NCBI RefSeq assembly: GCF_000507245.1
Contig: NC_023035.1
Location: 1,217,501 to 1,281,500 of the forward strand
Direction of reading: 5' to 3'
Length of the DNA: 64,000 nucleotides
Source of the DNA: Salinispira pacifica
GTDB taxonomy: Bacteria; Spirochaetota; Spirochaetia; DSM-27196; Salinispiraceae
Shown in pieces: positions 5,505-19,256 of the stretch. The notes under the pieces were generated by a model. The model was not told where the DNA came from. It saw only the letters and a program-made list of their open reading frames with translations, and did not search any database. A program made the position numbers and the translations under genes. The number at the start of each line of letters is the position of its first letter. The stretch's first letter is position 1.

Positions 5505-5600
5505 TGAAAAAAACCCGTTTAAGATGTAATTAATTGCCCTGCAGCGAAGCTTTACATTAAAAATTTGAGTAGGTATAGTGGATTCAACGTGACGGGATAT

Positions 5601-6476
5601 ATGACTGATACGAATCTGGGTAACATTGAAGAAGTTCTGATTGTCGCAAATTATCAGAAGCCTGAAGCCAAACCTCTATCTCACAGTATTCAGATCTTTC
5701 TGGAAGAGAAGGGTGTGAAGTCTGAAGTGTTCGGTTTCTCCGGAAAGGCGGATCTGGTTTGCGAACGGAATTATGATCTGGCCATTACCCTTGGGGGAGA
5801 CGGGACGGTATTGTTTGCCTCCAGGATACTTGCACCTCTGAATATACCGATTCTCCCCATAAATCTTGGTAATTTCGGGTTCATCACCGAGGTATCCAAG
5901 GATGACTGGCAGAATGATCTGGAAAGGGTCCTCAAGGGTGAGGTCAATCTGGGCAGCAGAATGATGCTTTCATTCAATCTGAAAAATGATGCTTCAAAAC
6001 GCGGCGGCGAAGAGCTGTGCGGCCGGGCCATGAATGATGTGGTGATTTCCGGTTCGGGGATTTCCAAGCTGGTGAATCTGATGGTGCATCTGGATGAATC
6101 GGAGCATATAGAGTACAAAGCAGACGGCATTATTTTCAGTACATCCACGGGCTCCACCGCCTATTCGGCTGCTGCCGGAGGACCGATACTTCATCCGGAG
6201 ATGAATGCCATTATACTTAATCCCATTTGTCCCTTCACCCTCTCCCACAGACCGCTTGTCCTGCCGTCGGAATCGGAGCTGAGAGTTGAAATAGCCGAAG
6301 ATCAGAGAACGGAGCTTACTCTCACCGTGGATGGTCAGTTGAGCTACCCGTTGAAATCCGGGGATGAGCTGTTTATTCGTAAGGCATCCAGTGCTGCCCG
6401 AATTCTCTACTCGGGCAGCAGAAGTTTTTACGAGGTGCTCCGTGCAAAACTGAGCTGGACCGGCGGTCCGGAATAA
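5601..6476 (+). CDS. nadK: NAD kinase
   Basis: This enzyme phosphorylates NAD to NADP in the cytoplasm. Counting from ATG 5601 (291 residues), the GGDGT motif is at 65-69 and NLGNFGF at 88-94. The second conserved block, DGIIFSTSTGSTAYS with AAGGPI, is near 175-195. Length and motifs are normal for the family. The start is uncertain: the SD is weak, and the frame is open from TTG 5565 and GTG 5589. It is followed 13 bp later by recN, so the two are probably cotranscribed. Confidence 0.93.
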   Translation: MTDTNLGNIEEVLIVANYQKPEAKPLSHSIQIFLEEKGVKSEVFGFSGKADLVCERNYDLAITLGGDGTVLFASRILAPLNIPILPINLGNFGFITEVSKDDWQNDLERVLKGEVNLGSRMMLSFNLKNDASKRGGEELCGRAMNDVVISGSGISKLVNLMVHLDESEHIEYKADGIIFSTSTGSTAYSAAAGGPILHPEMNAIILNPICPFTLSHRPLVLPSESELRVEIAEDQRTELTLTVDGQLSYPLKSGDELFIRKASSAARILYSGSRSFYEVLRAKLSWTGGPE

Positions 6477-6489
6477 CAGGATATTTCAC

Positions 6490-8193
6490 ATGCTGGAAAA
6501 TTTACACATTGAAAATTATGCATTGATTGAACGGCTTGAACTGGATTTTGCCCGGGGAATGAACACCCTCACAGGCGAAACGGGTGCAGGAAAGAGTATT
6601 CTCGCCGGCGCACTCAATGTACTCCTGGGCGGCAAGGCCACAACCGGGGCCATCCGCAAGGGTGCCGAACAGGCCGTGGTCAGCGGCAGTTTTTTACTTC
6701 CCTCATCCGGGGATGCAGCATCCGCCTGCCGTGACTGGCTGGACGAGCGGGGCATAGAGTTTGAGGAAGAACGGGTGATTCTCAGGCGGGTTCTGAAAAG
6801 TACCGGCAAGGGAAACTCATTCATTCAGGGCAGCATTGTTCCCCGCCAGCAGCTTGCAGAGTTCACTTCCATCCTTATTGACATGCATGGTCAGCATGAG
6901 CATCAGAGTCTTTTTAATATCCAGCATCATAGGAGATTTATCGATTCCTACAGTGCATGTGACGATCTGCGGGAAAGCGTTCAGAGGGATTTTCTGTTTC
7001 TGAATGAAAAAAAAGAAGAGCTTGAGAGTCTTCTGAATGATGAGCGGGACAGACAGGAAGAAATCGATTATCTGAACTTTTCCATCAAGGATATTCAGGA
7101 ACTTGACCCCCAACCGGATGAGGACACTGAGCTGGACAAGGAGCGTCAAAAGCTTCAGCAGTACGAACAGCTGTTTGCCAATGTTGAAAAAGCCTATGAT
7201 GCCCTCCACGACAATGAGGCATCCGCCTACGGGCTTGTATACAGCGGTATGTCCGCACTGGCTGCCGCTGCTGAAATTGATCCCCAGCTCAAGGAAAATT
7301 CCGAGCGTCTGGAATCCCTGTACTATGAGCTGGAGGATGTTGTAGCCCAGATCAGCGGATATAAGGATGATTTGAATTATGATCCCCAACGTCTGGAATT
7401 TATTGAGGAGCGGTTGGCGGAACTTTCCCGGGTAAAGCGCAAACACGGCCCCCGGCTCAGTGATGTGCGGGATTTCCTTGAACAGGCTCAGATTAAGGTT
7501 CAACAGCTGGAGAATGCCGATGACTACAGTCAGCGTCTGGAAAAGGAAATTCGGGAGCTGGAGCAGGCTCTTATTGAGAAGGCCAAACGTCTTTCCACTG
7601 CACGAAAAGAGGGCGGAAAAAAGCTTGAAGAGCAGGTACAGCAGAGTCTTCAGGCTCTCAGCATGAAAAAAGCCCGTTTCCGGGTGAGTGTAACCCAGAA
7701 AATGTCCGATCGGGGAATCCCGGTCTGCGGCGCCACCGGAATTGACCGGGTGGAATTTCTTCTTTCTGCAAATGAGGGTGAATCCCTCAAACCCCTTCGG
7801 AGCATTGCCTCCGGCGGTGAACTGAGCAGGGTGATGCTCGCAATCAAAACTGCACTGGCTGAAAGCGATGACATTCCAACCCTGGTGTTCGATGAAATTG
7901 ACAGCGGGATCGGCGGGGAAGTGGGAAGAGCCCTGGGCGAACATCTGAGAAGTCTTTCCCGCAGCAAACAGATTCTTTGCATTACCCATCTTGCCTCAAT
8001 CGCCTCACATGCCGATGCTCATATTAAGGTGATGAAGAACGAGCAGAATGGACGCACCATAACGTCTGCTGAACATATCCAGGCTGATGCACGGGTGGAG
8101 GAAGTCGCCCGAATGCTGTCAGGTGACAGCAGTACCCAGGCAAGCCTTGAGCATGCCCGGCAGTTGCTGGCAAGCGCTTCAAAAATCCGGTAA
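6490..8193 (+). CDS. recN: DNA repair protein RecN
   Basis: A 567-residue SMC-like ATPase that acts in recombinational repair of double-strand breaks. Walker A GETGAGKS is at residues 29-36. A long coiled coil rich in Glu, Lys and Gln occupies about 150-380. The ABC signature region SGGELSRVMLAIK is near 440, and Walker B LVFDEIDSGIGG near 466. Length is typical. The gene follows nadK closely, an arrangement found in many bacteria. Confidence 0.96.
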   Translation: MLENLHIENYALIERLELDFARGMNTLTGETGAGKSILAGALNVLLGGKATTGAIRKGAEQAVVSGSFLLPSSGDAASACRDWLDERGIEFEEERVILRRVLKSTGKGNSFIQGSIVPRQQLAEFTSILIDMHGQHEHQSLFNIQHHRRFIDSYSACDDLRESVQRDFLFLNEKKEELESLLNDERDRQEEIDYLNFSIKDIQELDPQPDEDTELDKERQKLQQYEQLFANVEKAYDALHDNEASAYGLVYSGMSALAAAAEIDPQLKENSERLESLYYELEDVVAQISGYKDDLNYDPQRLEFIEERLAELSRVKRKHGPRLSDVRDFLEQAQIKVQQLENADDYSQRLEKEIRELEQALIEKAKRLSTARKEGGKKLEEQVQQSLQALSMKKARFRVSVTQKMSDRGIPVCGATGIDRVEFLLSANEGESLKPLRSIASGGELSRVMLAIKTALAESDDIPTLVFDEIDSGIGGEVGRALGEHLRSLSRSKQILCITHLASIASHADAHIKVMKNEQNGRTITSAEHIQADARVEEVARMLSGDSSTQASLEHARQLLASASKIR

Positions 8194-8226
8194 AAAGCCC
8201 TATACTATGGGTATTGCGGAGGATGT

Positions 8227-9021
8227 ATGGGAAAAGTCAATGCTGAGGCGAAAAAGACCTACGCCGAAAAGGTGAAGGTATACAAACAGCAGATTGAGCA
8301 GATACTTCAGCGGGAAAAAAGCCTCCTTGCGGTAGTGGATAAAAGCGATACCACCCAGGCGTATAAACTTATTACCCTCTGCGAAGACCGTCTGAATCTT
8401 GCAGCCCACTACCTCCTGCTTAACCGTATTTCACTCTCGATGCTGGGAATTAAAAATGAAGCTTTCCTGAACGATGCGCGGAAGAGCTGCTACGAGAGCA
8501 TTATTCATCTGGAGCGGATTGTCAGCGATGCCGTGGACGCCCCATTCACCGATATGGAGGAGTACTGGGCTCTCATCGATGAACTGAGCGACCGGAAACG
8601 TTACGAGATTCTCATGAAGCTGGGATTTACCATCGAATCTGTCATTGAAGGCTTCGGTGAAAACACCAAATGGAAATGGTCGTTTGTGGATCTCAACGGG
8701 CGCTATGCCGCTGTTTTCAAGAACATGATCAATTTCAAGACCATTGTTGCAGGGCTTGATCCCCGTATGGAGGACTATCAGATCAGATACAAGCTGCTGG
8801 AACAGGCAAAGTCGCAGCTGGTTAAATCAGCAGACGAGTTTCGGCTGAAATATGAGCTTTCCACCAGCCGTATAGATGATTTTAAAACGGCGATTAAGTT
8901 TCTTTCAGCACTTCGGAGAATTCATCTCGTATTGGGGGAAAGCGAGGGTGCCGAAGATGTAAAACGGAAGATGGAGTTGTGGAAGCAGAAGATGGAAGAC
9001 GATGACCGTAAACAGGCCTGA
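8227..9021 (+). CDS. Spirochaete protein of unknown function
   Basis: A 264-residue soluble protein with no signal peptide and a mostly helical composition. Residues 5-30 are charged and coiled-coil-like (EKVKVYKQQIEQILQREKS). There are few cysteines and no catalytic motif I can name. ATG 8227 follows a GGAGG-type site (GCGGAGGATGT). It sits 33 bp after recN and before two exported proteins of unknown function. A TPR-like helical repeat is possible but cannot be shown by eye. Confidence 0.6.
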   Translation: MGKVNAEAKKTYAEKVKVYKQQIEQILQREKSLLAVVDKSDTTQAYKLITLCEDRLNLAAHYLLLNRISLSMLGIKNEAFLNDARKSCYESIIHLERIVSDAVDAPFTDMEEYWALIDELSDRKRYEILMKLGFTIESVIEGFGENTKWKWSFVDLNGRYAAVFKNMINFKTIVAGLDPRMEDYQIRYKLLEQAKSQLVKSADEFRLKYELSTSRIDDFKTAIKFLSALRRIHLVLGESEGAEDVKRKMELWKQKMEDDDRKQA

Positions 9022-10285: not shown

Positions 10286-11178
10286 TGTTTGTACCCGCGG
10301 AGCGCAGGGATTCCCGAGCCCGGGCCCAGGCCATGATGCGCTGGATTCTTTTCCTCACTGCTCTCTTCGCCATCTTTCTCTTCAATTCATTCAGATGGCC
10401 GGAGAACGCAGAGGTGGTAACCGAATTCGCCAGCACCGGGAGCCCCCTTGCCTCAGGGCGCCCAGCACCGTTTCTGGCACTGAGTTCTCCCGGGGGGTAT
10501 TCCCGCAGCAGCGATTCACCTGTGCTGTTTCAGGGGAATCTTCCCAACGGTCTGGGTTTTATTCAGGCTTATGCGGATGCCCAGGGGTATGTGGAGGTGT
10601 TCGGGAATCTGAACGGAAAGGCCCTTCAGCCCGATTCCGGGGATCTTCCAACCATGGGTATGAACAGCTGGAGCGAACTGTCCAAGCCGCTGATATATCT
10701 GATTCTTGATCACCGGAGGCATCAGGTGGTCAACCCGGAACTGTTCATGCCAAATCCGGCGGGAAATGCCCCTCCATCGCTTCGGCGGATGATTTTCCGG
10801 ACCCCCGAATCCGTTAATGAAGAAGAACAGAATGGCATTGAATTGTGGTCCTGGTATAGAAGAGCGGATATCCCCCATGGAGAGTATATACTCAGTCTGG
10901 ATACCGCCGACGGCAGGTTCGAATGGAATGATGTGGGGCGACTTTTTTCGGTAAGGCTGTATGTAAACGGTCAGCTTCAGTATATTCAGGGGAATTCATA
11001 CTTCGTGGAGGATGAAGGCGGAATCCGTCTCTTCCCCGGGGAATCCGGAGACTTTCGCTCTATTCCGATTTCCCTCCGGCCGGGAAAGAATATTATTGAA
11101 GTGTATTTGGAAGATGCAAAGGGGTTATCACAGGCATATGAATTTACCATCGATGGCGGAGCTCCTGGGGCTCAGTAA
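10285..11178 (+). CDS. Membrane-anchored protein of unknown function, coupled to the preceding gene
   Basis: A 297-residue protein. A basic N terminus (residues 1-18) is followed by one membrane segment (about 19-36, MRWILFLTALFAIFLFNSF), giving a cytoplasmic start and a periplasmic body. The C-terminal part (SLRPGKNIIEVYLEDAKGLSQ) resembles an immunoglobulin-like beta domain ending. ATG overlaps the previous stop by one base. The next gene starts inside its 3' end, so this looks like a tight operon. Confidence 0.6.
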   Translation: MFVPAERRDSRARAQAMMRWILFLTALFAIFLFNSFRWPENAEVVTEFASTGSPLASGRPAPFLALSSPGGYSRSSDSPVLFQGNLPNGLGFIQAYADAQGYVEVFGNLNGKALQPDSGDLPTMGMNSWSELSKPLIYLILDHRRHQVVNPELFMPNPAGNAPPSLRRMIFRTPESVNEEEQNGIELWSWYRRADIPHGEYILSLDTADGRFEWNDVGRLFSVRLYVNGQLQYIQGNSYFVEDEGGIRLFPGESGDFRSIPISLRPGKNIIEVYLEDAKGLSQAYEFTIDGGAPGAQ

Positions 11179-12043
11179 GCATAGCTATAAGACGTTCAGT
11201 ACGGTTCCACCGGCTGACGAAACACACAGAAAAGTGAACTGCCCCATCTGCGGCGGCAGCGGTGTTGAGCCTCATTGGGACTGCGGAAGTCATATCTTCT
11301 CACGATGCAGGGGCTGTTCCCACATTTATCAGAATCCCATGCCCGAGTCCCATCATCTGCTGAACCGTTATGATGAGGAATATAAGGAGTATGAGATTGA
11401 AAACGGGCAGATCTTTTTTGATCTCATGCGCTACGGTCTCAGAGATGCCGGCATTTTTTCTTTGGAGAGAAAACTGCTTTCATCCGGTGAGCCATCTCCC
11501 GCCGCGTTGGATGTAGGCTGTGCCACCGGCGTGCTGGTGAAGTACCTGAACGACCGGGGATGGCGGGCAGAAGGACTGGAAGTGTGTGCTCCCGCTGCGG
11601 ACTACGGTATTCAGCATCGGGGTGTTCACATTCATACCCGGCCCCTTGAGCAGGCACAGCTCACTTCGGAGGCATATGATCTGGTGCATTTTTCCCATGT
11701 CATTGAACACCTGTTTGATATCAATACCTTTCTTGCCGAAATACGGAGAATTACCCGTCCCGGCGGTCATGTGGTAATAACCACGCCCAACACCAGAAGT
11801 TTTCAGGCCGGACTTATGGGGCCTCACTGGCGGTCGGCCATCGCCGACCACACGCATCTTTTCAACCTGACCGAACTGCGAACTCTGCTCAGGCGGCATG
11901 GCTTTCAGCCCCTGCGCTGGAAGACCTGGGGGGGAATTCCGGCAGGTATGGCTCCGCCCTGGCTGAAGAAAAAGGTGGATAGAATAGCACGTATTACCGG
12001 TTATGGAGATGTTGTGATGGTGATGGGTCGCCGGGTATCTTGA
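11138..12043 (+). CDS. SAM-dependent methyltransferase with N-terminal zinc ribbon
   Basis: A class I methyltransferase of about 301 residues. Near the N terminus two CxxC pairs (CPICGG and CRGC) form a zinc ribbon. The SAM-binding motif I is ALDVGCATGVLVKYL, followed by LVHFSHVIEHL and the post-motif GGHVVITTPN. This layout is common in methyltransferases acting on sugars or small metabolites. The substrate is unknown. The start is uncertain: ATG 11138 is used, with ATG 11153 as an alternative; both overlap the preceding gene. Confidence 0.75.
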   Translation: MNLPSMAELLGLSKHSYKTFSTVPPADETHRKVNCPICGGSGVEPHWDCGSHIFSRCRGCSHIYQNPMPESHHLLNRYDEEYKEYEIENGQIFFDLMRYGLRDAGIFSLERKLLSSGEPSPAALDVGCATGVLVKYLNDRGWRAEGLEVCAPAADYGIQHRGVHIHTRPLEQAQLTSEAYDLVHFSHVIEHLFDINTFLAEIRRITRPGGHVVITTPNTRSFQAGLMGPHWRSAIADHTHLFNLTELRTLLRRHGFQPLRWKTWGGIPAGMAPPWLKKKVDRIARITGYGDVVMVMGRRVS

Positions 12044-12101: not shown

Positions 12102-12893
12102 ATGACTAGAGAACGGATATCGAATTTAAGTAATGGCGATCTTTTCAAACTTGCAGAGACCTTCTCCATGGATGTGCTGGATGATCTGCAGCTGGATGAA
12201 GAGAATCCGGATCAGCTCAGCAACGCACAGCGCAAAGAGCTGGAAGAGCAGATTTACGAAGTCCTGGAAGAAGTGCGGCAGGAACAGCGCAGGGGAGATG
12301 CTCATCCTGTTCAATATCATCAGAAACACTTTCTCAGTATAGAAGAGTTCTTCGGACGAAAGATTGAAGATGAGAGCAGTTTTTTCCAGTTTCCCGATCA
12401 GTATAATGTAACGCGCATCATGCTTATGCTCAGGGATCCCGAGTGGGCATACAGCTATTGGGATATCTCCAACCAGGACAGATCACGAATTGTACAGCGT
12501 ACAGATTTCCGCTATTTTGTAATTATCCTTGCAGAAATTCAGGATGAATATTCCGCCGGTCCCGGAGGAGATGTTCCCCTGGAGGAACCTGTTCAGATGG
12601 AAATACCCGTACAGCTTACCGACAATAACTGGTACATCAACCTTCCCAGAAAACATACCTCCTATATGGTTGAGCTTGCTGCAGAGTATGTGGAAAACCG
12701 GGAGGTATTGGCTTCCTCGGGAATTATCAGAGTGCCTGGGGGCAGCTTCAGTGCCAACCTTGAGAATATCAGCAGCCGTGAGACTGAGGTGCTGCTGGCT
12801 ATGTCCGGTATTGAAGATCTGGGTGTAAGTTCCTATGAGGGGACTCCCCGGAAAATCGTGGAAGTACTGGAAAACGGCGGAAGCAATGAATAA
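12102..12893 (+). CDS. DUF4912 domain protein
   Basis: A 263-residue cytoplasmic protein. The DUF4912 core is recognisable at about residues 100-130 (NVTRIMLMLRDPEWAYSYWDIS). An acidic, coiled-coil-prone stretch (about 28-65) precedes it. In many bacteria DUF4912 genes sit next to a GH57/DUF1957 glycan enzyme, as here (60 bp spacing), so a role in alpha-glucan metabolism or its control is plausible. No catalytic residues are evident. Confidence 0.8.
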   Translation: MTRERISNLSNGDLFKLAETFSMDVLDDLQLDEENPDQLSNAQRKELEEQIYEVLEEVRQEQRRGDAHPVQYHQKHFLSIEEFFGRKIEDESSFFQFPDQYNVTRIMLMLRDPEWAYSYWDISNQDRSRIVQRTDFRYFVIILAEIQDEYSAGPGGDVPLEEPVQMEIPVQLTDNNWYINLPRKHTSYMVELAAEYVENREVLASSGIIRVPGGSFSANLENISSRETEVLLAMSGIEDLGVSSYEGTPRKIVEVLENGGSNE

Positions 12894-12952: not shown

Positions 12953-14596
12953 ATGGGAAATATACAATTACTGCTGCATGCTCATCTTCCGTTTATCAGA
13001 CATCCGGAGCATGAAAGCTTTTTAGAGGAAACCTGGCTGTTTGAAGCCATTTCCGAGTCCTATACGCCTCTCCTTCTCATGCTTGACCGCCTGGATGCAG
13101 AGGGTGTGGTACCGGGTATCACCATCAGTTTTTCACCCAGTCTTACTGCCATGCTGGATGACGAACTGCTGCAGCAGCGTTATGTGCGGTACCTGAAAAA
13201 ATTGATTGAGCTTGGAGAAAAAGAGGTGGAGCGCACCCGGGATGAAGCAGCGTTCTCCCGGCTTGCATCCATGTATCTTGATATCTACCGTCGAAATCTG
13301 GATGTGTTTGAGAATCAGCTTCACCACAATATTCTTTCGGGTTTTGATTATCACCAGAAGAAGGGGAATATCGAGATTATTACCAGTCCCGGAACCTATC
13401 CCTTTCTCCCTTTTTATGAGCAGTATCCGGCAAATATTCACGCTCATCTGGAAGCTGCCCTGGATAGTCATCAGAAGATTTTCAATAAGGCCTCCAGAGG
13501 CATCTGGCTTCCTGAATGCGGGTATTACCCCGGTCTTGAAAAACATCTGAGAGAGCATGGCGTGGAATATTTTTATCTGGCTGCCCATGGAATTCTTTTT
13601 GCGGATAATTGTCCCAAGTCGGGCACCTATGCGCCGGTTGAAACTCCCGGCGGGCTGTTCGCCTTCCCCCGGGATGTATCTTCGGTGAACCGGGTCTGGT
13701 CGGAAATAGACGGCTACCCCGGGGAATTCGCATACCGGGATTTTTACCGGGATATCGGACACGATCTTGATTTTGACTACATCAAGCCCTATATCCATCT
13801 GGAGGAAATCCGGGTGAACACGGGGTACAAATATTATGCGATTACCGGAGAAACAGATCACAAGCAACCCTATGATCCCCAGGCGGCTCAGGATAAAGTG
13901 AAGGAGCATGCAGAGAATTTCATCTTCACCCTGGAAAACCGGGTCCGGAAGGTATCCGGGCTGATGGATCAGGAACCGGTGATTACCACGCCGTTTTCAG
14001 CCGAGCTGTTCGGACACTGGTGGTTCGAAGGAGTGGCATGGCTGGAAGAGGTAATCCGGGGTATTCAGTCTCCCGCCTGCAAGGACCTTCGCATGGGTAC
14101 GCCATCCGCGTATATTGATGCGAATCCGAAGCAGCAGAAGCTGAGTCCGGTGTTTTCCAGCTGGGGTAACAAGGGCTATGCAGAGGTGTGGCTCAGCGGA
14201 CCCAATGACTGGATCTATCGCCATCTCCATTCGGCCATCGAGCATATGCAGGAACTGGTTGAGCGCTTCCCTGAAGTCACCGGCTTGAAGCGCAGGGCAT
14301 TGAATCAGGCTGCCCGGGAAGTACTCCTGGCACAGACCATTGACTGGTCGGTGATTATGCGCTCGGGAGTTTCTGAAGAGTACGCCCGGGCCCGGATTCG
14401 GGAACATATCGGGAATTTCTATTATATATACGAGGTCCTGGGGCAGGGAAATCTCGGCACCGAGTGGCTGACAACAATAGAACGGAAAAACAATATATTT
14501 CCCAACATCGACTATCTCACCTTCGCCGCGAGACTGGAGCGGGATAACGGACGCCTGGGGCATCCCTATGTTGTCACCGACCGGGTGGTGAAATAG
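12953..14596 (+). CDS. GH57/DUF1957 family protein, glucan branching enzyme-like
   Basis: A 547-residue protein of glycoside hydrolase family 57 with the DUF1957 C-terminal region typical of GH57 1,4-alpha-glucan branching enzymes. Motif 1 HAHLPF is at residues 9-14. The nucleophile region GIWLPECGY contains Glu188, and the WWFEG block is near 355. In characterised branching enzymes the second catalytic residue is the Asp of DxELFGHWW; here the text is FSAELFGHWW, with Ser349. The protein may be inactive, altered in reaction, or use another acid. A probable terminator follows at 14690-14730. Confidence 0.85.
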   Translation: MGNIQLLLHAHLPFIRHPEHESFLEETWLFEAISESYTPLLLMLDRLDAEGVVPGITISFSPSLTAMLDDELLQQRYVRYLKKLIELGEKEVERTRDEAAFSRLASMYLDIYRRNLDVFENQLHHNILSGFDYHQKKGNIEIITSPGTYPFLPFYEQYPANIHAHLEAALDSHQKIFNKASRGIWLPECGYYPGLEKHLREHGVEYFYLAAHGILFADNCPKSGTYAPVETPGGLFAFPRDVSSVNRVWSEIDGYPGEFAYRDFYRDIGHDLDFDYIKPYIHLEEIRVNTGYKYYAITGETDHKQPYDPQAAQDKVKEHAENFIFTLENRVRKVSGLMDQEPVITTPFSAELFGHWWFEGVAWLEEVIRGIQSPACKDLRMGTPSAYIDANPKQQKLSPVFSSWGNKGYAEVWLSGPNDWIYRHLHSAIEHMQELVERFPEVTGLKRRALNQAAREVLLAQTIDWSVIMRSGVSEEYARARIREHIGNFYYIYEVLGQGNLGTEWLTTIERKNNIFPNIDYLTFAARLERDNGRLGHPYVVTDRVVK

Positions 14597-14967: not shown

Positions 14968-15408
14968 GTGCTTACAGGGGAATATCGAAACAGTCTTGAT
15001 GAAAAGGGACGGCTCCTGATTCCATCCAAACTCCGAAACGCTATCCCGGGAAACTCACTGGTTATCACCAGAGGTGTTGATCGCTGCCTTTGGCTGTTCA
15101 GCCCGGAAGAGTGGAGGAACCTGTCCGCCAGTCTGATGGAGGCGGCCAGTCCGTTTCAGAAACGGGCGCGGTTGCTCCAGCGGAGGATTATTGCCCCTGC
15201 CCAGGAAATAGAACTGGATAAGGCCGGGCGCCTGAATATTCCTCCCACCCTTGCAGAATCTGCAGGCTTGAACCGGGAGTGCATGGTGCTGGGCATTGAG
15301 AAATATCTTGAAATATGGGATATGGAGGAGTATCAGCGGTATTTTGAAGACACTGAGGAAGAATTCAGGGAGGCTGCCGAAGAACTGGGAGGGTTCGTCT
15401 CCTTCTGA
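14968..15408 (+). CDS. mraZ: Transcriptional regulator MraZ
   Basis: A 146-residue MraZ with two AbrB-like halves. The first is at about residues 1-50 (GEYRNSLDEKGRLLIPSKLR) and the second at 75-125 (ELDKAGRLNIPPTLAESAG). It forms a ring that represses the dcw operon through direct repeats like those at 14925-14960. It starts at GTG with its SD inside the last repeat. rsmH follows after 12 bp. Confidence 0.96.
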   Translation: MLTGEYRNSLDEKGRLLIPSKLRNAIPGNSLVITRGVDRCLWLFSPEEWRNLSASLMEAASPFQKRARLLQRRIIAPAQEIELDKAGRLNIPPTLAESAGLNRECMVLGIEKYLEIWDMEEYQRYFEDTEEEFREAAEELGGFVSF

Positions 15409-15420
15409 AAAGGGGTAATC

Positions 15421-16296
15421 ATGGACATTCAGCATACTTCGGTTCTGGCGGAAGAGGTGATCGAATATCTTGCGCCTGACCGGGAGAACGGAATATTTAT
15501 TGATTGCACCCTGGGAGAAGGCGGGCATTCGGAGCGTATTCTTGAATCCTTTTCCGGGATCAGACTGGTGGGTATTGATACTGATGCGGCAATTCAGGCC
15601 AAGGCCAAGCGCCGGCTTGAGCCGTACAAGGATCGTACCACATTTTACAACGGTTTTTTCGATGAGTTTTTCAGGGATTATCCCCTGGAGGAACCTGCGC
15701 ACCGGATTCTCTTCGATCTCGGAATCTCCATATTCCACTATAACGAAAGCGGCCGGGGCTTCTCCTTTTACCGGGACGAGCCTCTGGACATGCGGCTTAA
15801 TCCCCACAGGGGAAGGCCGGTTCAGGATATTCTCGCGGGAATTTCAGAGGCTGAACTGCGTCAGCTGCTGTTCGATTACGGTGAGGAACGCTACGGCCGG
15901 AGGATCGCAGCGGCGATTATCCGAGCCCGGGATGAGTCGGCCATAACCTCATCGCTTCAATTGGCGGGAATTATTGAAAACGCCGTCCCTGCGGCATACC
16001 GCTACGGCAAGATCCACGCAGCCACCAGAAGTTTTCAGGCGCTGCGAATTCTTGCAAATGCAGAGCTGGAACGGATAGAACCGGCCATGGAAGATGCATT
16101 CCGGCATCTGGAGACCGGCGGACGCATGGGAATAATCAGTTTTCACAGTCTGGAGGACCGGATTGTAAAACATCGCATGAAAGAGTGGGCAAAGTCCTGT
16201 ATTTGTCCTCCGGAAGTGCCGATGTGTGAATGTGGGGGAAACCTCTTGTTCGTCTGCCTGTCCGAAAGGGCGTCACCGCAGGGGAGGAAGAGGTAA
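15421..16296 (+). CDS. rsmH: 16S rRNA (cytosine1402-N4)-methyltransferase RsmH, frame broken near the end
   Basis: RsmH (MraW) methylates the N4 of C1402 in 16S rRNA. The frame starts HTSVLAEEVIEYL, has the SAM motif DCTLGEGGHSERIL near residues 22-35, and contains RSFQALRILANAELERI and GGRMGIISFHSLEDRIVK. After CECGG the frame turns into non-family text and stops at 16296 (291 residues). The normal RsmH tail is present in the -1 frame from GGGGGAAA (16234-16241) to a stop at 16370. One extra G in the G5 run would restore a protein of about 316 residues ending on the ftsL start codon. Confidence 0.93.
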   Translation: MDIQHTSVLAEEVIEYLAPDRENGIFIDCTLGEGGHSERILESFSGIRLVGIDTDAAIQAKAKRRLEPYKDRTTFYNGFFDEFFRDYPLEEPAHRILFDLGISIFHYNESGRGFSFYRDEPLDMRLNPHRGRPVQDILAGISEAELRQLLFDYGEERYGRRIAAAIIRARDESAITSSLQLAGIIENAVPAAYRYGKIHAATRSFQALRILANAELERIEPAMEDAFRHLETGGRMGIISFHSLEDRIVKHRMKEWAKSCICPPEVPMCECGGNLLFVCLSERASPQGRKR

Positions 16297-16370
16297 AACA
16301 GAATCCCCCATCCCGGAGCGCCCGTTTACGGGTTCTTGAGAAACTCCGGGATTCAAGGCATGATGCATGA
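16239..16370 (+). other. rsmH: Out-of-frame C-terminal tail of RsmH
   Basis: Read in the -1 frame relative to the rsmH frame, this DNA gives KPLVRLPVRK and then EEEVKQNPPSRSARLRVLEK, the conserved end of RsmH. Its TGA (16368-16370) overlaps the ATG of the next gene (ATGA at 16367), the coupling expected in a dcw operon. The rsmH break is therefore a one-base deficit in the G run or, less likely, a site of ribosomal frameshifting. Confidence 0.85.
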
Positions 16371-16645
16371 GTTCACGGCTGTTGAAACTTTTTATAGGGC
16401 TGCTTGTTGTTGCGGTGCCTCTGCTGATGTTTGCCAATGTATGGCGTTCCCATCAGTATTTTGATCTGGAAAACCGGGTTGAGGCATTGAGAAATGATCA
16501 ACAGGAAGCCGTAGAACGAAACAAACGGCTGATTACCGGTATTTCCATTCTCCGTTCCCCCGGGCGCATTATTACCGAGGCCCGGAAGCTGGGTATGGAG
16601 ATGTCCGGAAGCGATCAGCTTACGGTAATAGATGAAGATCCCTGA
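16367..16645 (+). CDS. ftsL: FtsL-like cell division protein
   Basis: A 92-residue bitopic protein. A membrane segment at residues 5-26 (LLKLFIGLLVVAVPLLMFANVW) is followed by a short coiled coil (about 32-60, DLENRVEALRNDQQEAVERNK) and a SPGRIITEARKLGMEM end like other FtsL proteins. Its size and its position right after rsmH support FtsL, which works with FtsQ in the divisome. Sequence identity in this family is low, so the call rests mainly on architecture and synteny. No ftsI or murE follows; murF is next. Confidence 0.8.
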   Translation: MSSRLLKLFIGLLVVAVPLLMFANVWRSHQYFDLENRVEALRNDQQEAVERNKRLITGISILRSPGRIITEARKLGMEMSGSDQLTVIDEDP

Positions 16646-16699
16646 TGAATCCGCACCCAGCCGGTGCCGGTCGTTCAGGGTGTTCCTTGGGAGGGGAGT

Positions 16700-18184
16700 A
16701 TGGCCGGGTACCCGGTGGCGTTATCACAGGATGAATTTATCCGAAGGGTGAAAAAGGATTCCGCATGGAGAGCCTTTATCCTGGACAGCCGTCAGGTATC
16801 CCGGGGAGATGTGTTCTTTGCTCTGCAGGGTGAACGGGTGAACGGACACTCATATATCCCCCAGGCAATTGAAGCGGGTGCCCGTGCTGTGGTTCTACAG
16901 CGCCATTATTTCGAAAACCATCAACAGAGTCTTCTGGAAGCTGCCGGTCTGGGTGAGCACTGCGATGAAAGTCCGCTGGTTCTTGCTTCGGAGTTGTCCG
17001 AAGAGCACGATACCGTGGTGTTTGTAAGTGTGGAAAGCCCCCTGGAATGTCTGCAGGCCGCCGGCGCAGCCGTTCTGGCAATGAGCGGCGGGTTTCGGAT
17101 CGGTATTACCGGAAGCAACGGGAAAACGGGCACCAAGGATCTGCTTGCATCGGTGCTGTCCCGGAAGGGAGACTGCTTCAGCCGAAAAGGCAATTTCAAC
17201 TCGGTTATCGGTCTTCCGGTGCTTATGGCCCAGGTCCCTGTCAATACTGATTATACTGTCATGGAAATGGCAATGAGCGAGAAGGGGGAAATGGAGACCC
17301 TGTCCCGCCTTGTTCGTCCAAACGCCGCATTAATCACAAACATCGGGACTGCCCATATCGGAAACATCGGCAGCCGGGAGGGAATAGCTGAAGAAAAATT
17401 TCAAATTTTTTCTTCCATGACCGAAGACGGGGTGGCCGTACTCCCCGACGACGATCCCTGGGCCATGAAATATCTTGAAGAGCATCCTCTGCAACAGAGA
17501 ATTCTTTATTACGGCCTTGGCTCCCGACATGGCTTCAGCATTCTTGCTGAAGACGTTGGGGAAACCGTCATCGCCTACCAGGGAGGAGAGTTCAGGCTTC
17601 CATTCAGCGGAAGGCACATGCTGCATAATACTGCGGGGGTTATCACTCTGGCACGGCAACTTGGGCTCAGCGATTCAGAAATTCAGGAAGGTCTGAATGG
17701 GTTTCAGCTCCCCCAAGGCAGGGGCAATATTATCCGGGGTCATTCGCTCCTCATTGATGACAGCTACAATGCCAACGCCGATTCAATGGCTGCGGCAATT
17801 GAACAAGCCGCCCAGGTTGCGGTGGAGCGGCAATTGGTGCTGATATTGGGCGATATGCTTGAGCTGGGTGATTACAGTGATGAGCATCACCGGGATGTGC
17901 TGTCCCGCGCCATGGATGCCGAACCTTCCGCCATACTGCTGCTGGGGGAGTATTTTTCCCGGGCTGCGGATCACTTGGGGGGTGCCGGTTTAGATCCCGC
18001 GGATAGCTCTGGAGTGCATGCCGCCGCCGATATTGAAGAGCTGAAAGGGCTCTGCAAATCTATCATACAATCCGGAAGCGCCATACTGCTGAAGGGCTCC
18101 AGGGGAATGGAATTGGAACGGATTATTCCATTTTTGCCGGGTCTGGAACAGGAACGGGAATCAGGAGGAAAACCCGGTGTTTAA
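16700..18184 (+). CDS. murF: UDP-N-acetylmuramoyl-tripeptide--D-alanyl-D-alanine ligase
   Basis: MurF adds D-Ala-D-Ala to the UDP-MurNAc-tripeptide, the last cytoplasmic step of precursor assembly. The N-terminal domain holds DSRQVSRGDVFFALQGE. The ATP loop GITGSNGKTGTKDLL is near residue 137, and the central-domain motif is NIGTAHIGNIGS. A later block reads DDSYNANADSM. ATG 16700 is chosen because GGGAGGGGAG lies directly upstream; an upstream GTG at 16664 lacks a site. At 494 residues it is slightly long. It overlaps mraY by 8 bp. Confidence 0.95.
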   Translation: MAGYPVALSQDEFIRRVKKDSAWRAFILDSRQVSRGDVFFALQGERVNGHSYIPQAIEAGARAVVLQRHYFENHQQSLLEAAGLGEHCDESPLVLASELSEEHDTVVFVSVESPLECLQAAGAAVLAMSGGFRIGITGSNGKTGTKDLLASVLSRKGDCFSRKGNFNSVIGLPVLMAQVPVNTDYTVMEMAMSEKGEMETLSRLVRPNAALITNIGTAHIGNIGSREGIAEEKFQIFSSMTEDGVAVLPDDDPWAMKYLEEHPLQQRILYYGLGSRHGFSILAEDVGETVIAYQGGEFRLPFSGRHMLHNTAGVITLARQLGLSDSEIQEGLNGFQLPQGRGNIIRGHSLLIDDSYNANADSMAAAIEQAAQVAVERQLVLILGDMLELGDYSDEHHRDVLSRAMDAEPSAILLLGEYFSRAADHLGGAGLDPADSSGVHAAADIEELKGLCKSIIQSGSAILLKGSRGMELERIIPFLPGLEQERESGGKPGV

Positions 18185-19256
18185 AGAGTTTTTGTATCCT
18201 TTGGTGGAGTACTTCACTCCGTTTAATATTTTTCAGTACATCACGTTCCGCTCCGCATATGCGGCGGTCACCAGTTTGCTGATCACCTTCTTATTCGGGC
18301 ACCAGATAATCGATCTGCTGAAGAGGCGCCACATCGGTGAGGAGATCAGGGGTGACGGACCCAAATCCCATGTGAGCAAGACCGGAACTCCCACCATGGG
18401 AGGAGTGATGATTATTTTTTCAACCTCCTTTTCGGTGCTTTTGTGGATGGACCCCCGCAACCTCTATACCTGGGTCAGTCAGCTGGCCATTCTGGGATTC
18501 GGGGCAGTGGGTTTTATTGATGATTACATTAAAGTGTACATGGGCAAAAAGAGCGGGCTTCCCTCCCATGTGAAGATGGCCGGACAGTTGCTGGTAAGTA
18601 CCGCCATCATGTTATTGCTCTATTTCAACAGGCATGAGTTCACCACTCTGCTGTATGTGCCCATGGTGAAAAATGCGGTGCTGGATCTGGGCGTGCTTTT
18701 TATTCCCTTCGGGGTTTTCTGGCTTGTGGGTTTCACCAATGCGGTGAACCTTACCGACGGACTGGACGGTCTGGCAACCGGATTGAGCATCATGGTGGGG
18801 CTGACCTTCGGTGCAATTGCGTATCTCACCGGACGGGTGGACTTCTCCCAGTATCTTTCAATTCCGTATCTGGCCGGAGCAGAAGAGATCACCATTCTTG
18901 CCTTTGCCATGGTGGGGGCTTCAGTGGGATTCCTCTGGTACAACAGCAACCCCGCGGAGGTGTTCATGGGAGACACCGGCAGTCTCATGCTCGGCGGTAC
19001 CCTGGGGGTGATGGCCATCATGATTAAAAAAGAGCTGCTGCTGGTGATCGTGGGAGGAGTATTTGTCCTTGAAACCCTCACGGTAATAATTCAGGTGGTC
19101 AGTTATAAGATGCGAAAGAAACGGGTTTTTCTCATGGCTCCCCTGCATCACCATTTTGAATTGAAGGGATGGGCGGAGACCAAGGTTGTACAACGGTTCT
19201 GGATACTGGGAGGCTTGTTTGCCATTCTGGGATTATCCACGTTGAAAATTCAATAG
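18177..19256 (+). CDS. mraY: Phospho-N-acetylmuramoyl-pentapeptide-transferase
   Basis: MraY transfers phospho-MurNAc-pentapeptide from UDP to undecaprenyl phosphate, making lipid I at the inner membrane. It has 359 residues and about ten membrane segments. Signature blocks are GPKSHVSKTGTPTMGG (about 62-77), FIDDYIKV (about 116-123) and NLTDGLDGLATG (about 192-203). The C-terminal text APLHHHFELKGW carries the conserved His cluster. GTG 18177 has AGGAGG at 18163-18168. Confidence 0.97.
   Translation: MFKEFLYPLVEYFTPFNIFQYITFRSAYAAVTSLLITFLFGHQIIDLLKRRHIGEEIRGDGPKSHVSKTGTPTMGGVMIIFSTSFSVLLWMDPRNLYTWVSQLAILGFGAVGFIDDYIKVYMGKKSGLPSHVKMAGQLLVSTAIMLLLYFNRHEFTTLLYVPMVKNAVLDLGVLFIPFGVFWLVGFTNAVNLTDGLDGLATGLSIMVGLTFGAIAYLTGRVDFSQYLSIPYLAGAEEITILAFAMVGASVGFLWYNSNPAEVFMGDTGSLMLGGTLGVMAIMIKKELLLVIVGGVFVLETLTVIIQVVSYKMRKKRVFLMAPLHHHFELKGWAETKVVQRFWILGGLFAILGLSTLKIQ

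Follow-up and report, generated by a model that had tools for sequence, protein, structure and literature searches.

The nearest relative with a solved structure to the protein considered here is AmyC of Thermotoga maritima, initially described as an alpha-amylase and subsequently shown to be a branching enzyme that also hydrolyzes strongly; its catalytic pair is E185 and D349, with H10 polarizing the acid (PMC6616209). Proteins of the AmyC type make up about 92% of the GH57 "branching enzymes," and yet they are weak branchers even when they are intact (10.5 vs. 480 mU/mg; PMC10346327), so a function other than branching is plausible for the type. It is also on record that some relatives lack catalytic residues: 60 such bacterial GH57 "GBE-like" proteins were listed in 2018, with no biochemistry given (Martinovicova and Janecek, PMC6037648).

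We have concerned ourselves with one AmyC-type protein, from Salinispira pacifica, and with its relatives among the Spirochaetia. What is left for a branching enzyme to do when its acid is gone, and why would so many genomes go on keeping one?

An AmyC-type protein with serine at the acid position

The window (the whole stretch of S. pacifica DNA that was analyzed, 64,000 nucleotides long) contains a plus-strand open reading frame, 12953-14596, whose translation includes ...VITTPFSAELFGHWWFEG... The features of its product that matter for the argument are the following.

12953..14596 (+): GH57 branching-enzyme-like protein, 547 aa, AmyC type (Pfam, PDB match, AlphaFold2 model)
12977..12979 (+): His9, "polarizer" of the acid/base, kept here and Asn in many related lineages (role: PMC6616209)
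13397..13399 (+): Tyr149, in place of a His that is invariant in intact relatives (column comparison)
13514..13516 (+): Glu188 (GAA), catalytic nucleophile, kept; aligns to AmyC E185 (residue role: PMC6616209)
13994..14020 (+): conserved region IV, F348-W356, FSAELFGHW (direct reading)
13997..13999 (+): Ser349 (TCA), where the catalytic acid/base Asp stands (alignment to AmyC D349)
14222..14524 (+): BE_C domain (PF09210) of the GH57 protein (Pfam)
14339..14341 (+): Ile463, in place of Ser (AmyC S462, near the active site; column comparison)

Both Pfam models are over their cut-offs in this protein (PF03065 with 97 bits at residues 6-296 and PF09210 BE_C with 123 bits at residues 424-524), and the fold is a (beta/alpha)7 barrel. 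Its top PDB match is AmyC itself (2b5d; E 1.4e-144, residues 2-525), on which the AlphaFold2 model (mean pLDDT 93) superposes with a VIA-align Z of 50.0 (rmsd 1.7, 512 residues aligned). The two GBE fingerprints quoted in PMC11206854, HxHLP and ELFGHW, are both present, as HAHLP and ELFGHW, which we take as a warning to annotators. The long flexible loop with a Tyr at its tip that belongs to the "true" GBE group is absent; the loop is of AmyC length, about 10 residues shorter than in 5wu7. Two NCBIfam equivalogs, NF041566 and NF041133, which are narrow models (Thermus, Thermococcales), are not reached (275 and 273 bits against cut-offs of 920 and 1000, respectively).

The first-pass annotation of this DNA had read Ser349 at the Asp of the DxELFGHWW motif and had called the nucleophile Glu188 intact, and both readings are borne out. 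The nucleophile Glu of CSR-3 is present, and the acid/base Asp of CSR-4 is absent, as is seen in the translation, in the alignment to AmyC, and in the Ser of every carrier in the family. The alignment runs without a gap through the motif and the 42 residues N-terminal of the site (S349 against D349, E188 against E185), and so, the register is safe. To go from GAY to a Ser codon takes at least two base changes. No substitute acid was seen at the site, nor does alignment place there the other Asp that the annotation had thought conceivable; the neighboring E351 is invariant in intact enzymes as well (117/117). The polarizing and groove residues H9, H11, W28, R240, W356, W404, W413, and D464 are all intact. 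The annotation's picture of a single altered catalytic residue in a conserved fold survives as far as D349S and the fold are concerned and is too simple for the rest of the active-site region, where H149Y and S463I/L are further changes in this family. An artefact of sequencing, assembly, or alignment can be dismissed as next to impossible: the genome is finished (one contig, 3,782,798 bp), Ser recurs with different codons in two other genera, and the register is gap free.

How old is the serine? Three of the four genomes in the family carry the gene (the fourth, which does not, is 57% complete), and all three carriers have Ser in the motif (FSAELFGHWW, FSAELFGHWW, and YSAELFGHRW), encoded by TCA, TCT, and TCT. 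Asp stands at 349 in every other sequence of the order that could be read, and in the tree, the three Ser-bearing sequences form a single clade (SH-aLRT 100). D349S is a single substitution, old and fixed, in a fold that has otherwise been kept, and the question of whether Ser is a lineage feature is answered at the level of the family.

The rest of the protein was compared at the 73 columns that are at least 97% conserved in intact relatives. Intact members of the order differ at 0 or 1 of these; in the S. pacifica family, D349S and H149Y are found in all three sequences, Q165H in two, M432L in two, and R16K and W356R in one. Position 463, just outside the 73-column list, is I, L, and I in the family, and Ser stands there in 112/113 of the intact rows that have no gap at this column. 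H149 is changed in none of 116 intact rows vs. 7 of 15 mildly diverged rows that lack E188 or D349, and H149, H17, and H212, all histidines of the active-site region, change mainly in rows without E188/D349 or H9. When the H149 change was set against catalytic loss on independent pairs, the direction was right and significance was not reached, with too few pairs. As an aside, W356R accompanies Ser349 in one family member (G001), and the same ELFGHRW occurs with its Asp kept in G302, G312, G376, and G402 (family f17, genus g38).

Catalytic losses and the DUF4912 neighbor across Spirochaetia

A GH57 homologue is present in 338 of 395 Spirochaetia genomes, and E188 or D349 is changed in nine of the sampled families (f1, f10, f11, f13, f14, f16, f17, f21, and f22). 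The Asp gives way to Ser, Asn, Ala, Pro, or Arg and the Glu to Gln, Tyr, Asp, Ser, or His; replacement of H9, usually with Asn, is seen in many more lineages. On a quick tree of 156 rows, the minimum number of changes between the intact and lost states is 10. Sister lineages differ in what has gone (some have lost the nucleophile, others the acid, and some treponemes both), and this variety looks more like a relaxed constraint on catalysis than like a single new chemistry. The suggestion made for the S. pacifica protein at the outset, a glycan-binding or transferase variant, divides accordingly: a glycan-binding role fits, and a specific transferase variant is not supported as it was put, since sister lineages lose different catalytic residues.

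In a census of 393 genomes of the phylum, which left the Asp codon free and in which more diverged copies without the motif go uncounted, the motif was found in 104, with three Ser, one Asn, one Ala, and Asp in the rest. All 59 rows sampled from other phyla keep H9, H11, E188, and D349; because these 59 loci were picked for their resemblance to the window protein, in part through the motif, and are biased towards intact copies, "spirochaete-specific" is a provisional term.

The GH57 gene is not alone. Its flanks in the window are as follows.

12102..12893 (+): DUF4912 protein, 263 aa, directly upstream of the GH57 gene (PF16258, 86.9 bits against a gathering cut-off of 29.4)
14968..19256 (+): mraZ, mraW, a short DivIC-like ORF, murF, and mraY, the start of the wall/division cluster (Pfam)

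All but one of the 50 Spirochaetia genomes examined have DUF4912 (49/50), and where both genes could be placed, it stands directly upstream of GH57 on the same strand. This arrangement recurs in 111/125 of the spirochaete loci retrieved, a set in which some genomes are represented twice. It occurs in 331 of the 395 genomes in which GH57 was counted, and most of the listed genomes that are without one are also without the other, including the Borrelia-like family (f12), from which both are absent. DUF4912 adjoins intact GH57 in Bacillota, Omnitrophota, Planctomycetota, and others. The model of the DUF4912 protein has helices at its N terminus and, at 104-214, a beta sandwich resembling FN3, and its best structural matches are FN3 domains (Z 8.7-9.8; the top match has a VIA-align Z of 9.8 and an rmsd of 2.8 over 93 aligned residues). 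To judge from the model, these matches would reflect the common sandwich only and say nothing about function. Carbohydrate-binding folds are absent among the listed structural matches, and a DUF4912 profile search against PDB sequences gave chance-level matches only.

The pair stands in the window directly upstream of mraZ-mraW-DivIC-like ORF-murF-mraY, and GH57, mraZ, mraW, and murF follow one another in this order at 20 further Spirochaetia loci from several families. In f10, f14, f21, and the E188Q lineages, as well as in other phyla, the pair is not beside the mraZ cluster. A link between the pair and wall synthesis or division is possible, on the basis of gene order only. On the other side of DUF4912 lie genes for an NAD kinase, a RecN/SMC-like ATPase, a 264-aa protein with no Pfam match, and a methyltransferase (window 5565-9021 and 11012-12043, +), and these are upstream of DUF4912 and in the same direction in several Spirochaetia loci.

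Are the lost copies maintained? A close pair with E188Q has a dN/dS of 0.025, and intact pairs have 0.013-0.059 (among the pairs listed); purifying selection persists in the E188Q lineage, the one lost lineage where it is measurable. Synonymous sites are saturated in the family of S. pacifica (pS 0.76-0.86 vs. pN 0.24-0.29). Frames are open and full length in the sampled lost families, and no sign of decay was visible in the lost copies. The strongest single case for retention without glycogen genes is a genome of 1,139,633 bp (G096), which has kept GH57 with H9D, H11N, and D349P, together with its DUF4912 neighbor, and in which no GlgA, GlgP, or GlgB was found.

6477-8075 (-) of locus L190 (G096:C1:375000-391000): full-length degraded-site GH57 of G096, next to DUF4912

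The genome of S. pacifica is different in this respect, having GlgA (499 bits) and GlgP (1208 bits) and no GH13 GlgB over the cut-off; both of its family members likewise have GlgA and GlgP over the cut-off and no GH13 GlgB. A GH13 GlgB that would make the GH57 gene redundant was over the cut-off in 0 of 50 Spirochaetia genomes, many of which (e.g., G000, G059, G126, and G239) have GlgA and, where tested, GlgP; several of the GlgA-bearing, GlgB-less genomes also carry a GH57 without catalytic residues, with no evident branching enzyme. S. pacifica has a second GH57 gene (681 aa; L001 1441-3486, G000:C1 near 880397), which belongs to the 4-alpha-glucanotransferase type (1k1w, E 1e-62) and retains its two catalytic residues. 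Given this type and the lack of GlgB, the sole branching-enzyme candidate of the genome would be, by its sequence, a protein without its acid. Two genomes only, G334 and G409 (L157 and L158), have GH13 proteins that score 216 bits with the GlgB model, which is below the cut-off and well above other spirochaetes; these are possibly eukaryote-type enzymes or members of another branching-enzyme subfamily.

What the protein may do

That the catalytic residues have been lost repeatedly while the gene and its DUF4912 neighbor were kept suggests that the real job of this protein is not, or not only, branching. A fold and groove that are kept, an acid that is lost, sister lineages that have lost one residue or the other, and retention without glycogen genes together make a non-catalytic role the most likely one, and we favor, with reasonable though far from complete confidence, a pseudoenzyme that binds glucan or acts as a scaffold together with DUF4912. 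We infer that the GH57 protein has lost its activity, binds glucan, touches DUF4912 physically, and serves as a scaffold. In this scheme, the AmyC-type protein of S. pacifica would be catalytically dead or nearly dead. Its kept fold and open glucan groove would probably still bind alpha-glucan chains; with no acid/base Asp, there would be no efficient protonation of the leaving group or activation of the acceptor, and chains would not be cut and re-joined. The protein would instead do a non-catalytic job with the adjacent DUF4912 protein (a helical N terminus and an FN3-like domain), the task of the pair being most likely glucan binding or scaffolding/regulation.

The main rival, which we regard as unlikely and nonetheless take seriously, is that the protein is still active, whether at a slow rate, by means of a different proton donor, or on donors for which acid catalysis is unnecessary (e.g., glucosyl phosphates), and that the cell has no other branching or transferase enzyme. 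Residual activity is best argued from gene content: GlgA and GlgP without a GH13 GlgB, in all three family members, make the GH57 protein the obvious branching enzyme; that this sole candidate lacks its acid is the main reason that our confidence in a pseudoenzyme is not higher. Glu188, H9, H11, W404, and W413 are kept, and a dead enzyme would not need both its nucleophile and most of its groove residues; H149Y and S463I/L may compensate for the missing acid. However, no new acidic residue has appeared at the site, one alternative chemistry leaves the sister losses of the nucleophile or of both residues unexplained, and proteins of the AmyC type, as noted above, are weak branchers even when intact (PMC10346327).

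Might the intact spirochaete relatives be ordinary branching enzymes and the lost ones merely functionless genes in decay? The Treponema-like lineages f10, f14, and f21 are highly diverged at conserved columns, as decay would have it, but frame-shifted copies and losses would then be expected, and what is found is full-length open frames in the sampled lost families, a low dN/dS in one lost lineage, a GH57 gene retained in a 1.14-Mb genome, and a DUF4912 partner gene that is kept; we give this idea very little credence. Marginally less credible still is a spirochaete-specific neofunctionalization toward a different glycan (e.g., a glycan connected with the envelope or with division), some lineages having given up catalysis. 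For it one can cite the position directly upstream of mraZ-mraW-murF-mraY in 20 loci and the window and the keeping of this GH57 type where glycogen genes are gone; against it stand a pair that is away from the cluster in f10, f14, f21, and the E188Q lineages and in other phyla and the fact that gene order alone does not show function.

A wider proposal can also be made, which we offer tentatively as a possibility well short of probable: DUF4912-GH57 may be an ancient two-gene module with a selected function that does without GH57 catalysis, the catalytic residues having been lost many times in spirochaetes and the module kept even without glycogen metabolism, and many AmyC-type proteins now annotated as "branching enzymes" may mainly be regulators that bind glucans or envelope glycans. 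A class in which the catalytic residues are lost repeatedly and the gene and its partner are kept is a natural experiment that separates catalysis from selected function, and the question is testable with a few orthologues. Many GlgA-bearing spirochaetes, meanwhile, are left without an evident branching enzyme.

Comparison with known systems

Among known proteins, AmyC of T. maritima (2b5d) is the best match in sequence and fold over the whole length, with the same short catalytic loop, and its nucleophile, histidines, and gatekeeper Trp are the same in the window protein; the two differ in that AmyC has Asp349 and Ser462 and the window protein has Ser349, Ile463, and Tyr149 (His in intact relatives). 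TK1436 (3n8t) and TT1467 (3p0b) share with it the fold (Z 44-46), the nucleophile, and the BE_C domain, but both have the Asp and a long flexible Tyr loop, and the window protein has neither. A different comparison is offered by the D352N forms of the Aquifex aeolicus amylopullulanase (8zyi and 9jlt), GH57 barrels with the Asp replaced that, according to their PDB titles, were crystallized with glucans. These are engineered single mutants of another specificity and 17% identity; their titles, Asp-to-Asn mutants with bound glucans, suggest that a GH57 protein without the Asp can bind its substrate.

The nearest precedent is the "GBE-like" group, to which the window protein belongs by definition, being close to branching enzymes and without a catalytic residue; the main text that describes the group differs from the present account in giving no taxa, partner gene, or count of independent losses (PMC6037648). 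Nothing relevant was found in the literature on DUF4912, TP0358, or spirochaete GH57 pseudoenzymes, and the literature searched yielded no mention of the recurrent loss in Spirochaetia, of the pairing with DUF4912, or of the synteny. GH57 relatives of branching enzymes that lack catalytic residues were already known; as far as that main text goes, it is their recurrence, their DUF4912 partner, and their synteny that appear to be new.
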